A stretch of DNA of 20,790 bases from a virus. Location of the stretch: IMG/VR virus record IMGVR_UViG_3300048927_000514, positions 1 through 20,790 of that record. The stretch is one strand, 5' to 3'. This document shows, piece by piece, positions 1,661-15,527 of this stretch (position 1 is its first letter; each line of letters opens with the position of its first letter). Below the pieces are notes generated by a model. That model saw nothing but the letters and a program-made list of their open reading frames with translations, did not search any database and had not been told where the DNA came from. The translations under genes were made by a program, and so were the position numbers.

Positions 1661-2409
1661 ACAGCGAGATTATGCAACGGGACGAGTCCGGCTTCTTCAA
1701 ACTAGAGGCGGACCAGGCGGCACTAACCGTATTCTTAGACGAAGTTACATCGAAGTCAAAACGGTTCCCGAATACGAAAACACGCGTCCATTGGCTTGTT
1801 GACAACGGGTATTACTACGACGTGTTCGCGCAATATTCAGACGATGCGATTAAAGGTGTACATTCCGAATGTTATTCGTACGGGTTCCGTTTCGCTTCGT
1901 ATATGGCCGCGTCCAAGTTTTACAAGGACTACGCGCTGAAGACGGACGATAAGGCGGAATACCTCGAAGATTACGCGCAGCACGTCGCAATCGTGGCGCT
2001 GTACCTCGGGCAAGGTGACGCGGAGATGGCGTTGAGCCTGGCGCGCGGCATGATGGAACAGCGGATTCAGTCCGCGACGCCTACGTTTATGAATGCGGGC
2101 CGGGCGCGGCGTGGCGAGCTAGTTTCGTGCTTTTTGCTGGAAATGGACGATTCGCTTAACTCGATCAATTACGTGTTAGGAACGTGTATGCAGCTCTCGA
2201 AGATCGGCGGCGGCGTGGCGGTTAATCTATCGAAGCTTCGGGGCCGGGGCGAACCGATTAAAGGCGTGGCCGGCGCGGCAAAAGGCGTCCAGCCCGTAAT
2301 GAAGCTGATGGAGGACGCGTTCTCCTACGCCGACCAAATGGGACAGCGGAAAGGCAGCGGCGCGGCGTATTATAACGTGTTTGGAGCGGACGTCGTCGAA
2401 TTTCTCGAT
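1639..2409 (+). CDS. nrdE: Ribonucleotide reductase class Ib large subunit NrdE, exon 1
   Basis: This is the first 257 codons of the catalytic subunit, which reduces ribonucleoside diphosphates to deoxy forms. Exon 1 has the class Ib N-terminal region (no ATP-cone), the active-site cysteine in RRGELVSCFLLEM (about residue 164) and QLSKIGGGVAVNLSKLRGRG. It stops at EFLD, where the frame would run into TGG TAA inside the intron. The homologous N terminus (HIELNSEIM) starts upstream of the first ATG (1672), which has no SD. GGAGGT (1624-1629) is followed nine bases later by ATC (1639), the likely start. Exon 1 joins exon 2 at 3258, restoring a protein of about 696 residues, close to the roughly 700 of Bacillus NrdE. 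Confidence 0.93.
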
Positions 2410-3257
2410 TGGTAAACAGTCGCCTCGCACAGCAATGTACGAGTGAAAACCGCGTGAACGCAAGCAAAAGCGGTGTGCTTCCTTAGTGGAAGTGCTAACG
2501 GTGGAACCTAAGGCGTTTAGCTATGGCAATACCGTGCCAAGACGGCAATAGAAAGGAGGGGAAATTATTGAGCGGTATTTACTGCATTTTTAATGAAGCA
2601 GACAGGCGTATGTATATAGGAAGTACAAATAACTTTGCTCGTCGAAAGAGCGAACATATAAGTGCCCTAAAACATGGGAGACATAGTAACAAGCATTTGC
2701 AATTAGCATACATTTCTGGAGACGCACGCGACTTCCAGTTCATTGAGCTAGTGCGATGTAATCGAGAGGAGGCGTCATTGCTTGAAGAAAAGGTATTAAC
2801 GGACTTGTATTCATCTGGCCTTTTGTATAACTCAAGCCCATACGCTTCCGGAGGCGGTAATCAAGCACGGATGTGCAAAATGCGTGAGAAAATTGTACAC
2901 CGCGGAAGGACCGGCGTTCCGGTAAGCATAAACACGCGTGCTAAAATGTCGAAGGCGCACACGGGAGGTAAAAGAAGCGCTCAGACAAAATCGAAGATGA
3001 GCGAGCGGAACGCGAACAACGTTAAAATAAGGGTCTATGGCAAGGTGTATCGTTCGATGTCGCAGGCCGCCTCGATGTTGGGGATTAGTCGTACGACAAT
3101 TAATAGCCGGGTTAACTCGGATAATTTCCCCGACTATTCTCGTGAGCCGTAAGGTGTAGAGACTAATTGTAGGGCGGAGATTAGCACCGTCCGAAGCGCG
3201 CGGCATCCTTATGGATGATGATATAGTCCGGTCTGGCGGGAAACCGTCAAGTAACCG
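2410..3257 (+). ncRNA. Group I self-splicing intron in nrdE
   Basis: The nrdE frame is interrupted after EFLD and resumes with CKKINADEKVRIK, the expected next residues. Splicing after T2409 and before T3258 restores the frame and leaves an exon ending in U and an intron ending in G (3257), as group I introns require. A short P1 can form between CGAT (2406-2409) and GTCG (2419-2422). Core-like sequences include GCTAACGGTGGAACCTAAGG (2494-2513), GTGTAGAGACTAA (3154-3166) and GATATAGTCCG (3220-3230), all of the kind found near P3/P7 and P9. The intron is 848 nt, mostly taken up by the endonuclease gene. Exact ends are inferred from protein alignment by eye. Confidence 0.87.
2568..3152 (+). CDS. 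Intron-encoded GIY-YIG homing endonuclease
   Basis: TTG 2568 lies eight bases after AAAGGAGG (2552-2559), so the protein begins MSGIYCIFNEADRRMYIGST and has 194 residues. GIY (residues 3-5) and YIG (16-18), an Arg in NFARRKSEH and a Glu in LLEEKVL form the GIY-YIG nuclease domain. NUMOD3-like repeats follow (SINTRAKMSKAHTGG, then SAQTKSKMSERNANN), with a C-terminal helix-turn-helix of the NUMOD1 type (SMSQAASMLGISRTTINSRV). This is the I-TevI/I-BmoI architecture, an N-terminal nuclease with a modular DNA-binding tail. It would cut intron-less nrdE and drive homing. Base use is clearly more AT-rich than its neighbours, as expected of a mobile intron. Confidence 0.92.
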   Translation: MSGIYCIFNEADRRMYIGSTNNFARRKSEHISALKHGRHSNKHLQLAYISGDARDFQFIELVRCNREEASLLEEKVLTDLYSSGLLYNSSPYASGGGNQARMCKMREKIVHRGRTGVPVSINTRAKMSKAHTGGKRSAQTKSKMSERNANNVKIRVYGKVYRSMSQAASMLGISRTTINSRVNSDNFPDYSREP

Positions 3258-4577
3258 TGTAAAAAAATAAATGCAGATGAAAAAGTCCGTATCAAAACGT
3301 TATCTATCGGCTTAATCGTTCCAGACAAATTTTACGAATTAGCAGAAGCCGGCGAGGATTTACACGTATTTGGACCGCATTCCGTCCGTAAGGCCTACGG
3401 TCAGCATCTCGATGATATGGACATGACGGAAATGTACGACATGCTGCTCGAAAATCCCGCCGTTACAAAGCGGAACCTCGGGCCAGCCCGTAACATGTTG
3501 ACGAGGATCGCGCAGACGCAGCTTGAGTCGGGCTATCCGTACATCTGTAACGTGGATAATGCGAACAGGCAGCACGCATTAAACGGACTCGGTCGCATAA
3601 AAATGTCGAATCTCTGCACGGAAATTTTTCAGCTCCAGGAAACGTCGACTATCGCGGACATCGGCGAGCCCGGAACGGAGTATAAACGTGATATTTCGTG
3701 CAACCTCGCCAGCCTGAACATTGCAAACGTAATGGCGACCGGTAAGCTCCGCGAGTCTGTCCACGAAGGTATGCGCGCGCTGACGGTCGTTTCCGATATA
3801 TCTCGCATTCCGAATGCGCCGGGTGTCCAGCGAGCAAATTCCGAATTACACTCCGTCGGGCTCGGCGTCATGAACCTTAACGGATTCCTCGCGAAAAACG
3901 GCATACCGTATGAAAGCGCCGAGGCCCGCGACTTTGCTCGGACATTCTTCGCGGCCATGAACTATTATTCGTTGGAGGCTTCGGCGGCGATTGCGAAAGA
4001 GCGCGAGCAGACGTTTGAGGGATTCGAGCAAACGGATTATGCGAACGGGACGTACTTTGAGCGTTACCTGTCGGAGGACTTCGTTCCGAAAACGGAGCGT
4101 GTCCGAGAGTTGTTCGCCGGCATTACGTTACCGTCCCGCTATGAATGGGCAGCACTATCCGCTGATGTCTGTAATTACGGGCTCTATCACGCGTACCGGC
4201 TCGCGATTGCACCAACGCAGTCCATTTCCTATATTCAAAATGCCACGCAATCCGTTATGCCTATCGTTGAGCATATCGAGACGCGAACGTATGCTAACGC
4301 CACGACGTATTATCCGATGCCGTTCCTAGCTCCGGAAAACTTTTTCGTATATAAATCGGCGTACAACGTCGACCAGTTTAAGTTAATCGACATGATTGCG
4401 GAAATTCAGCCGCACATTGACCAGGGTATTTCGACGGTGCTGCACGTTAATAGTACGGTGTCGACGCGGGAGCTGGCGATGCTATACGTTTACGCGTGGA
4501 AGCGCGGGCTGAAGAGTCTTTACTATACCAGGACGAAGCGGTTATCGGTCGAGGAGTGTACGAGCTGCGCGGTTTAA
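3258..4577 (+). CDS. nrdE: Ribonucleotide reductase class Ib large subunit NrdE, exon 2
   Basis: The remaining 439 codons of NrdE begin CKKINADEKVRIKTLSIG. They include the catalytic N-x-C-x-E motif SNLCTEI, whose Cys (about residue 377 of the spliced protein) forms the thiyl radical. RDISCNLASLN carries the second redox cysteine, and IAPTQSISYIQ and YYPMPFLAPENFF are conserved NrdE segments. The tail ECTSCAV has the C-x-x-C that accepts electrons from NrdH or thioredoxin; no nrdH is seen here. The first 31 codons are strikingly AT-rich (about one third G+C by hand count, against well over half at the end of exon 1), which may be a co-conversion tract from intron homing. Confidence 0.95.
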   Translation, partial: CKKINADEKVRIKTLSIGLIVPDKFYELAEAGEDLHVFGPHSVRKAYGQHLDDMDMTEMYDMLLENPAVTKRNLGPARNMLTRIAQTQLESGYPYICNVDNANRQHALNGLGRIKMSNLCTEIFQLQETSTIADIGEPGTEYKRDISCNLASLNIANVMATGKLRESVHEGMRALTVVSDISRIPNAPGVQRANSELHSVGLGVMNLNGFLAKNGIPYESAEARDFARTFFAAMNYYSLEASAAIAKEREQTFEGFEQTDYANGTYFERYLSEDFVPKTERVRELFAGITLPSRYEWAALSADVCNYGLYHAYRLAIAPTQSISYIQNATQSVMPIVEHIETRTYANATTYYPMPFLAPENFFVYKSAYNVDQFKLIDMIAEIQPHIDQGISTVLHVNSTVSTRELAMLYVYAWKRGLKSLYYTRTKRLSVEECTSCAV

Positions 4578-13797: not shown

Positions 13798-14646
13798 ATG
13801 TTCGTTGAACCGATGTTACTCGGAAAACGTGAAGAACCGTTTGACGACAGCCGTTTCGTTTTTCAACCGAAAATAGACGGCCATCGCCTTATATTATCGC
13901 GGACAGCCGGGGTAGCTCGTTTGTATACGCGACACAATAACGACGTAACACGGCAATACCCGGAATTGCATAGCGTTCCAATTGCTGGCGGGGTCGACGT
14001 CGTTTTGGACGGCGAGGTTGCGCGGCTCGATGATACGGGATGGGTCGATTTTGAGGCGGTTATGGAGCGGTTTCGGCTCGCAAAGCAGGCGCGAATTAAT
14101 GCGGCAGCTCTCGCTAAGCCCGTACATTATTACGTATTTGACGTGCTACGGTACGCGGGCGAGGACGTTCGAGGTTGGCCGCTAACGGAAAGGCTTGCGT
14201 TGCTAAATCGGATTATTACGCTGAACCCATATTACTCGGTCGTGCTGACGCTGCCCGGCGCGGGCAAAGCGCTGTTTGAGACGATTAAGGCGCATCGCTT
14301 GGAAGGTATCGTAGCTAAACGGAGCGATAGTTTGTACGTTGGCCGGCGGTCCGATAATTGGCTGAAAATTATTAACTACGAATACGCCGACGTTACGATC
14401 GCGGGCTGGCGTAAAGGGGATTTTGGCTGGCTCGCGAATATAGACGGACGGTCAGCGGGCATAATCGAATTAGCTGTTCCGGCGGCGCACCGAAAGGCGT
14501 TTTATAACATTGCCCGTCCGCTGGTAACGGGTGAGGATCGAGATTACGTTTACGTGGAGCCACGCATAAAGGCGCGCGTAAGGTTCCGTAATTTTTATAA
14601 AAGCGGAATGTTGCGGACGCCAGAATTCGTCAGCTTCGTGATCTAA
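13798..14646 (+). CDS. ATP-dependent DNA ligase (catalytic core only)
   Basis: The protein of 282 residues has the nucleotidyltransferase motifs in order. Motif I is FQPKIDGHR, with Lys25 as the adenylated residue. Motif Ia is YTRHNNDVT, motif III is LDGEVARLDD, motif IIIa is YYVFDVLRYAG, motif IV is LEGIVAKR and motif V is NWLKIIN. A short OB-fold follows (VTIAGWRKGDFGWLANI to IKARVRFRNF). There is no N-terminal DNA-binding domain, as in LigD-type ligases and the SPbeta YoqV protein. It seals nicks in phage replication or repair. ATG 13798 is preferred to GTG 13789, which overlaps the SD. Its stop overlaps the convergent minus gene by four bases. Confidence 0.93.
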   Translation: MFVEPMLLGKREEPFDDSRFVFQPKIDGHRLILSRTAGVARLYTRHNNDVTRQYPELHSVPIAGGVDVVLDGEVARLDDTGWVDFEAVMERFRLAKQARINAAALAKPVHYYVFDVLRYAGEDVRGWPLTERLALLNRIITLNPYYSVVLTLPGAGKALFETIKAHRLEGIVAKRSDSLYVGRRSDNWLKIINYEYADVTIAGWRKGDFGWLANIDGRSAGIIELAVPAAHRKAFYNIARPLVTGEDRDYVYVEPRIKARVRFRNFYKSGMLRTPEFVSFVI

Positions 14647-15128
14647 GTGGTTTTGCTCGGCTTGTTACGAAGTTGAGCGCCTATTTCGTCGACGTAATTT
14701 GTAAGTCGCGCTGAGATTTCGTTCCGCAGCGCTTCCCGTGCAATACCGAACCGTTCGTTATAACCGCGGCAAGTGTAGCGAAAATAAAGAATCCCGTCGC
14801 CGGCTTCTTCGTTCTGAACCTTAATGCTACGTTTTCGCAAGTCACGTTTTAGTGCGAACTGGTCATCGGATACACTGTTCATTAGAACTTCGAGGCAGCG
14901 CGTCAGTAGGCTCTTTAGCGGAAGCCGGGAAGCCTCAACATTATCAATACCGTTCTGTAACATCATAACAATGTACGGATACATGACGGCGTCCCGGATC
15001 ATCGTTAACTCGTCGATTGTCGGCCGGCCTGTCGTGGGGATTCCGGCCTTCTTCGCGTCGTATTGCTCCTGATGCTCCGTTAACAACATTTTTCCGGACC
15101 AGCGGTTATTATCGTCTAGTTTACTCAT
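14643..15128 (-). CDS. Unknown conserved-looking protein, 161 aa
   Basis: The start ATG at 15128 (minus) lies eight bases after GGAGGTG (15143-15137). An upstream extension of the frame runs through the inverted repeat and is not credible. The protein begins MSKLDDNNRWSGKMLLTEHQ and contains a helical centre (IRDAVMYPYIVMMLQNGIDN; LPLKSLLTRCLEVLMNSV). A basic segment follows (ALKRDLRKRSIKVQ), then a strand-rich end (GDGILYFRYTCRGYNERFG). It may bind DNA, but no known domain is evident. It converges on the ligase gene with overlapping stop codons. Its expression is probably limited to its own promoter (see the inverted repeat at 15126-15191). Confidence 0.65.
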   Translation of the reverse strand: MSKLDDNNRWSGKMLLTEHQEQYDAKKAGIPTTGRPTIDELTMIRDAVMYPYIVMMLQNGIDNVEASRLPLKSLLTRCLEVLMNSVSDDQFALKRDLRKRSIKVQNEEAGDGILYFRYTCRGYNERFGIAREALRNEISARLTNYVDEIGAQLRNKPSKTT

Positions 15129-15191
15129 AAAACGGGCACCTCCGTAATAAGAACGTATGTTCCTATTATACGTAGAGGTGCCCGTTTTATG
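15126..15191 (-). promoter_or_regulatory. 17-bp perfect inverted repeat enclosing a promoter and masking an RBS
   Basis: CATAAAACGGGCACCTC (15126-15142) is repeated as its exact reverse complement at 15175-15191. Read on the minus strand, the promoter-distal arm contains both GAGGTG of the SD and the ATG of the 161-aa gene. A minus-strand TATAAT (15170-15165), with TTGCAT (15194-15189) 18 bases upstream, would start transcription near 15158, inside the loop. Transcripts from that promoter lack one arm and leave the SD free. Read-through from the regulator gene (15205-15411) would form a 17-bp stem that hides SD and start codon. A weaker inner dyad (GAAC/GTTC, 15151-15162) may be an operator. 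Confidence 0.72.
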
Positions 15192-15204
15192 CAATAGGTA
15201 ACGT

Positions 15205-15411
15205 TTAGGCTTCGACCAGCGTAAGTAATTCCGCTGGAGAGACGTCAAAGTAAGCACACAGCTTCGCTAATAAGTCGCGCGGATACCGTTCCATTTCGTC
15301 GTTGTACAGTTGACGCACACTCTCGAAACGGTAATCGATATCACGCGCAATTTCTCGTATAGATACGCCGCGAGTATCGGCCAGGGCGCGTAAGTTTGAA
15401 CGGATAATCAT
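15205..15411 (-). CDS. Cro/CI-family (XRE) transcriptional regulator, 68 aa
   Basis: The start ATG at 15411 (minus) follows CGGAGGTG at seven bases; a GTG nine bases upstream overlaps the SD. The protein MIIRSNLRALADTRGVSIRE is a single helix-turn-helix domain with IARDIDYRFESVRQLYNDEM as HTH core and YPRDLLAKLCAYFDVSPAEL as the last helices, typical of short YozG/Cro-like regulators. It sits beside a divergent promoter pair with three related operators and is the natural candidate to bind them. Its own promoter has perfect -35 and -10 boxes. Lacking a dimerisation domain, it is more Cro-like than CI-like in size. Confidence 0.88.
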   Translation of the reverse strand: MIIRSNLRALADTRGVSIREIARDIDYRFESVRQLYNDEMERYPRDLLAKLCAYFDVSPAELLTLVEA

Positions 15412-15434: not shown

Positions 15435-15463
15435 ATTATACGTTGACTCGAAAAAAGTGTCAA
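15435..15463 (-). promoter_or_regulatory. Consensus promoter for the XRE regulator
   Basis: On the minus strand TTGACA (15463-15458) is separated by exactly 17 bases from TATAAT (15440-15435). Both hexamers are perfect sigma-A consensus. Transcription would begin near 15428 and give a short leader with CGGAGGTG before the regulator's ATG. Operator copy 15446-15460 covers the spacer and part of the -35, suggesting autorepression. Confidence 0.88.
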
Positions 15464-15527
15464 ATAAGTATTGACTCGCAAAAGGAGTCGTGTTATTATT
15501 AAGTTGTGGATGACACGATAAGCGAGT
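15446..15527. promoter_or_regulatory. Three related 15-bp operators of the divergent switch
   Basis: Three 15-bp elements with partial dyad symmetry were found by eye: ACTCGAAAAAAGTGT (15446-15460), ACTCGCAAAAGGAGT (15474-15488) and ACACGATAAGCGAGT (15513-15527). Half-sites are ACTC and GAGT with an A-rich centre; read in reverse the third begins ACTCGC like the second. The first covers the regulator's promoter, the second the rightward promoter, and the third lies just after its start site. This is a lambda-like three-operator layout. Binding by the XRE protein is inferred from position. Confidence 0.65.
15471..15499 (+). promoter_or_regulatory. Rightward early promoter
   Basis: TTGACT (15471-15476) and TATTAT (15494-15499) are separated by 17 bases, a strong sigma-A promoter reading right. 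The start would be near 15506, giving a leader of about 50 bases before ATG 15557. Operator copy 15474-15488 overlaps its -35 and spacer, so bound regulator should block it. Confidence 0.82.

Follow-up and report, generated by a model that had tools for sequence, protein, structure and literature searches.

A predicted fold-back hairpin around a LexA-box promoter between a phage repressor gene and an SOS gene

In the window, the whole 20,790-base stretch of viral DNA analysed here, a perfect inverted repeat spans the promoter and start codon of a 161-aa gene located behind a probable repressor gene. This hairpin probably acts as a read-through insulator around a LexA-controlled promoter, so that an SOS gene is not expressed from RNA reading through from the repressor. 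The repeat, the promoter, the LexA box, the missing terminator and the comparative pattern are read from sequence, and from them we infer the transcription start, LexA binding, the translational block and the benefit.

The inverted repeat and its predicted RNA folds

The repeat consists of two arms, at 15126-15142 and 15175-15191, that are complementary at 17/17 positions across a gap of 32 nt, as originally predicted. No second repeat of at least 12 bp with a gap of at most 60 was found in the window, where about 0.0001 repeats of length 17 are expected by chance. The whole 66 nt forms a near-palindrome (83% match between the region and its own reverse complement), and its minus-strand RNA is predicted to fold at -42.1 kcal/mol (z -8.85). 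Zero Rfam families were matched at the gathering threshold in the window. Elsewhere, a group I intron match below that threshold (3103-3250; 30.3 bits, E 1.6e-5) was observed in a region where the ribonucleotide reductase large-subunit gene is apparently split (1672-4577, plus strand; ORFs 1672-2415 and 3417-4577), with a GIY-YIG endonuclease ORF (2523-3152) between the halves.

On the minus strand, the order of elements is the regulator gene (stop codon 15207-15205), 13 nt, the upstream arm, the -10 TATAAT, the LexA box, the Shine-Dalgarno sequence (SD) GGAGGTG and ATG. The downstream arm (GAGGTGCCCGTTTTATG, 15126-15142) carries the ribosome-binding site (RBS), spacer and start codon of the 161-aa gene (14643-15128), in line with the earlier claim for this arm, the SD lying at 15143-15137 and the ATG at 15128-15126. 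The upstream arm (CATAAAACGGGCACCTC, 15175-15191, minus strand) is an anti-RBS sequence within the inner promoter's -35/-10 region and occurs in read-through RNA only. It takes in the final three bases of the -35 TTGCAT (15194-15189) and most of the 18-nt spacer, with the -10 (15170-15165) between the arms. The proposal that TTGCAT-18-TATAAT (15165-15194, minus strand; predicted start near 15158) lies between or across the arms is thus borne out by position, and this promoter type is recurrent. Promoters tolerate almost any sequence between -35 and -10. Because the anti-RBS arm lies in this spacer, only read-through RNA is able to form the stem, and because the region is sequence-tolerant, the device would exclude its own transcript by construction.

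Comparing the predicted folds of read-through and inner-promoter RNA, the check proposed along with the original prediction, gave the expected difference. In read-through RNA from the window, the predicted unpaired probability is 0.01 for the SD and 0.01 for the ATG (~99% paired), versus 0.32 and 0.76 in native RNA starting near 15158, in which the SD is predicted to remain partly paired with the coding sequence. For L003, the window's one close relative, which also carries the repeat, the corresponding predictions are 0.01 and 0.01 in read-through RNA and 0.71 (SD) and 0.40 (ATG) in native RNA. In silico, the stem is therefore restricted to read-through RNA, as had been claimed, the inner-promoter RNA being devoid of the upstream arm.

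The two promoters and the SOS gene

Directly upstream, and in the same direction, lies a gene for a Cro/CI-type HTH regulator (15205-15411, minus strand; HTH_26, E 2.3e-12), the probable repressor. It was claimed to have a strong promoter, and TTGACA-17-TATAAT at 15463-15435 (minus strand) indeed matches the consensus at 12/12 positions, making it the proposed source of read-through RNA. No terminator was detected by scan between the regulator and the 161-aa gene, the sole candidate in the window being located inside the regulator coding sequence. Judged from sequence alone, transcription toward the 161-aa gene therefore has a strong promoter and no terminator found on the way. In the same region (15435-15499), divergent promoters, TTGACA-17-TATAAT on the minus strand and TTGACT-17-TATTAT on the plus strand, share TTGACTC-N7-GAGTCAA operator-like repeats and represent a probable lysis/lysogeny switch.

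A perfect Firmicutes LexA box (GAACN4GTTC), GAACATACGTTC, lies in the hairpin loop and was absent from the original prediction; the exact match, GAACGTATGTTC, occupies 15151-15162, directly downstream of the -10 and over the predicted transcription start. Since 33/100 whole-window shuffles contain a perfect match, a lone box may be due to chance, and it is the placement and the recurrence in homologous promoters that carry weight. With the 106-nt junction as query, a search of 396 Paenibacillaceae genomes recovered the -10/LexA/RBS core in 22 of them, with matches falling nearly all on TATAATAGGAACATACGTTCTTATTACGGAGG and the repeat itself absent; by visual inspection, the genes behind this core comprise, among others, one ORF like a Y-family polymerase (L229) and several 161-aa-like proteins. 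Among 132 collected LexA-box promoters, TTGCAT-18-TATAAT occurs in 11 (window and L003 included), and TTGCAT is the commonest hexamer exactly 18 nt before the -10. SOS promoters of Paenibacillaceae genomes and phages thus repeatedly show this arrangement with a LexA box. LexA boxes also precede homologues of the 161-aa gene, with perfect matches in L003 and L024 and two near matches in L025; the L024 and L025 copies stand alone, neither behind the regulator nor with the repeat. In L024 (3163-4471), a gene for an SRAP (SOS response associated peptidase) protein is divergent from the 161-aa homologue over the perfect LexA box. On the evidence of the recurrent core and TTGCAT spacing, the inner promoter is an SOS promoter with predicted LexA control.

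The window arm is the longest anti-RBS arm among the 132 promoters. A general anti-SD tendency of LexA promoters was considered and dropped: in folds of 106 of them, each computed with its upstream sequence and without it, the SD of read-through RNA had a mean accessibility of 0.32 vs 0.36 with shuffled upstream sequence, and CCTC/CTCC was only slightly enriched.

The 161-aa protein matches phrog_34234 (E 6e-7), with zero Pfam and zero transposase matches, and its homologues (36-89% identity) are found in phages, Paenibacillus, Cohnella and related genomes. Genes of this family usually come immediately after one for a Y-family DNA polymerase: at 74 of the 90 homologue loci the gene directly follows an ORF with a C-terminal IGGH-type motif, and all three upstream ORFs checked are Y-family polymerases (Pfam IMS domain, E 7.8e-40 to 2.8e-42). 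The window copy has no adjoining Y-family polymerase and stands alone behind the repressor. Gram-positive Y-family polymerases pair with YolD proteins, both being SOS-induced (PMC6511836). The N-terminus of the 161-aa protein, RWxxKMLLTEH, resembles the YolD start; a YolD identity was not adopted, however, because the YolD Pfam (PF08863) gave 0 matches among 10 family members and the AlphaFold2 model (pLDDT 80) is mostly helical, with long helices and three strands. The SH3-like beta-barrel of YolD was not seen in this model, and a PDB search with it returned nothing at E <= 0.001. Compared with the LexA-regulated UvrX/YqjW and YolD operons (PMC6511836), the phage gene likewise belongs to a LexA-linked small gene family usually found beside a Y-family polymerase, but it stands alone behind a repressor and lacks a YolD Pfam match. 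The SOS gene product is probably an accessory of translesion synthesis.

Comparative evidence and competing explanations

The order of repressor, LexA promoter and SOS gene is found in other phages too. In L171, L162, L182, L137 and L181, the scan placed an intrinsic terminator between a repressor-like upstream gene and the LexA promoter, the upstream genes of this comparison having mostly been recognised by eye, without domain search; that of L171 is a homologous regulator. In L152, the sequence shows a terminator-like stem (AAAAAAATCCCTTATT...AATAAGAGATTTTTTT), which the scan left unscored. In the window and L003, the terminator is absent from the junction and the stem is present instead. 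Relatives of the L003 regulator have a terminator behind them in many phages, and the genes behind relatives of the window regulator are different ones, mostly convergent, with the SOS gene in 0/11 loci seen.

In the L003 phage, the cassette and repeat recur behind an unrelated regulator, and identity with the window begins at AAGCCTAAACG, the end of the regulator. Between the two phages, 1/84 positions differ in the leader and 74/486 in the gene (P 1.5e-5), and the 18-nt spacer shows 0/18 changes against 32% divergence at fourfold sites (P 9e-4). The upstream arm is identical; the sole leader change lies in the downstream arm, where TTTT of the window reads TATT in L003; it costs the stem one pair, and 11 contiguous pairs still cover the RBS. 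No compensatory covariation was found in the arms between the window and L003, the two related phages carrying the repeat. The L003 regulator (1621-1910) has different operator-like repeats and is joined exactly at its end to the same SOS cassette, so that the swap, as read from the two sequences, is a clean immunity-module exchange. An exact scan of viral contigs for the arms found only the L003 phage besides the window, a phage collection search for the repeat gave 0 matches, and matches in a plasmid search were confined to a short part of the leader.

These comparisons bear on what the hairpin does. It might insulate mainly by terminating transcription from the repressor, and perhaps convergent ligase-side transcripts, with RBS pairing being secondary: a GC-rich stem followed by TTTTATG would stop polymerase arriving from the repressor gene, at the very site where other phages have a terminator behind the repressor. 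A d'Aubenton-Carafa-type score is slightly positive in the window's sense direction (+3.4), but the T-run is poor, the scores are -22.3 for the L003 sense direction and -4.3 for both antisense directions, the terminators of L171, L162 and L137 score +9 to +31, and the region scan gives no terminator at the hairpin. In addition, the TATT change in L003 spoils the T-run needed by a terminator while sparing the RBS pairing, which weakly favours RBS hiding over termination. A primarily terminating role is thus considered unlikely, although termination at the hairpin may contribute.

The palindrome could also act as DNA, as an extended operator that would bind LexA, the phage regulator or some other protein, with the RNA fold being incidental. 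Palindromes are typical of operators, and the centre of this one coincides with the LexA box. The centre of the arms is nevertheless ~2 nt off the box, the arms are absent from other LexA promoters and remain unchanged where the regulator is exchanged (L003), and the two regulators have operator-like repeats at their own promoters that match neither the arms nor one another, which makes such a role quite improbable. Confinement of the repeat to one lineage would fit a functionless repeat that arose by chance or by recent duplication, a hardly more probable account given that the spacer arm is unchanged amid the fourfold-site divergence, that the repeat falls exactly over the SD and ATG, and that it is present where no terminator separates repressor and SOS gene. 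Counting against the insulator itself are the limitation of the repeat to two related phages, the single uncompensated change that breaks a pair between them, the partial pairing of the SD that persists in the window's native RNA, and the lack of marked read-through pairing in LexA promoters generally.

Under the preferred insulator reading, transcripts from the repressor promoter that run past the repressor stop would hold both arms and fold into a long hairpin (the 17-bp outer stem plus an inner stem), in which the 161-aa gene's RBS and ATG are predicted to be hidden. Upon DNA damage, LexA would leave its box and RNA polymerase would start near 15158, in the hairpin loop, yielding a short mRNA that should be translated because the anti-RBS arm is missing. 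With read-through silenced and the inner transcript open, constant repressor synthesis in a lysogen would be compatible with an SOS gene that stays off until damage. A LexA-controlled promoter before an SOS gene of a polymerase-linked family would explain why insulation matters. Insulation of a phage gene from the regulator transcript, as first suggested, is thus partly supported, by in silico folding and the missing terminator, while the SOS/LexA control had been overlooked.

A possible second case was observed in L188 (2045-3118, minus strand), in which a gene for an ImmA-like peptidase (Peptidase_M78) lies behind a CI-like repressor gene and has a LexA promoter of its own. A 10-bp arm there is complementary to the SD region and no terminator was found; its GGAGG is predicted to pair only weakly in read-through RNA (unpaired probability 0.56), and a search for relatives that might show covariation yielded none beyond L188 itself. 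The proposal that LexA-gated fold-back insulators are a recurring alternative to terminators at repressor/SOS-gene junctions of Firmicutes phages, placing the anti-RBS in the otherwise unconstrained -35/-10 spacer and with L188 as an independent second case, is tentative and rather doubtful. Two further candidates were rejected: L199 has striking arms (GCTTGCCTC/GAGGCAAGC) with a strong terminator upstream and little change in predicted pairing, and the arm of L134 merely extends the LexA box palindrome.

Relation to known fold-back systems

In the IS10 and IS50 transposase genes, transcripts entering from outside fold back on the RBS, while the transcript from the element's own promoter does not. 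The window resembles them in that its read-through RNA is predicted to fold on the RBS and its own-promoter RNA is not; it differs in that the gene is no transposase or insertion sequence and the arms are not element ends. The original comparison with these elements is therefore a fair analogy, although T4 gene e and I-TevI are closer.

If the insulator exists, a promoter spacer may double as an anti-ribosome-binding-site, a simple rule for screening any constitutive gene that has a regulated gene behind it. The literature searched, which was not exhaustive, gave no account of a fold-back case under LexA control. In phage T4 gene e (lysozyme), soc, 49, I-TevI, I-TevII, I-TevIII and segB, as well as in Aeh1 mobE, the RBS or start is hidden in long transcripts, and a nearby internal promoter gives an RNA without the 5' arm that is translated (PMC3014915, PMC2988022); for gene e, the reduction is ~100-fold (PMC3014915; PMC2988022). 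The window shares with gene e and I-TevI the predicted pairing of SD and ATG in the long transcript and an inner promoter whose RNA lacks the 5' arm. Its host group, gene and sequence are unrelated to those of the T4 systems, and it is known from sequence alone. Whereas the internal promoters there are phage late or middle promoters that set timing, with late ones at gene e and I-TevI, that of the window has a host LexA box, which would tie it to DNA damage. By this analogy, the T4-type principle is already known, and the LexA/SOS control is what differs here. If correct, this would be the T4-style fold-back trick under bacterial SOS control, in which a single hairpin would allow constant repressor transcription in a prophage and keep the neighbouring DNA-damage gene silent until LexA is cleaved.
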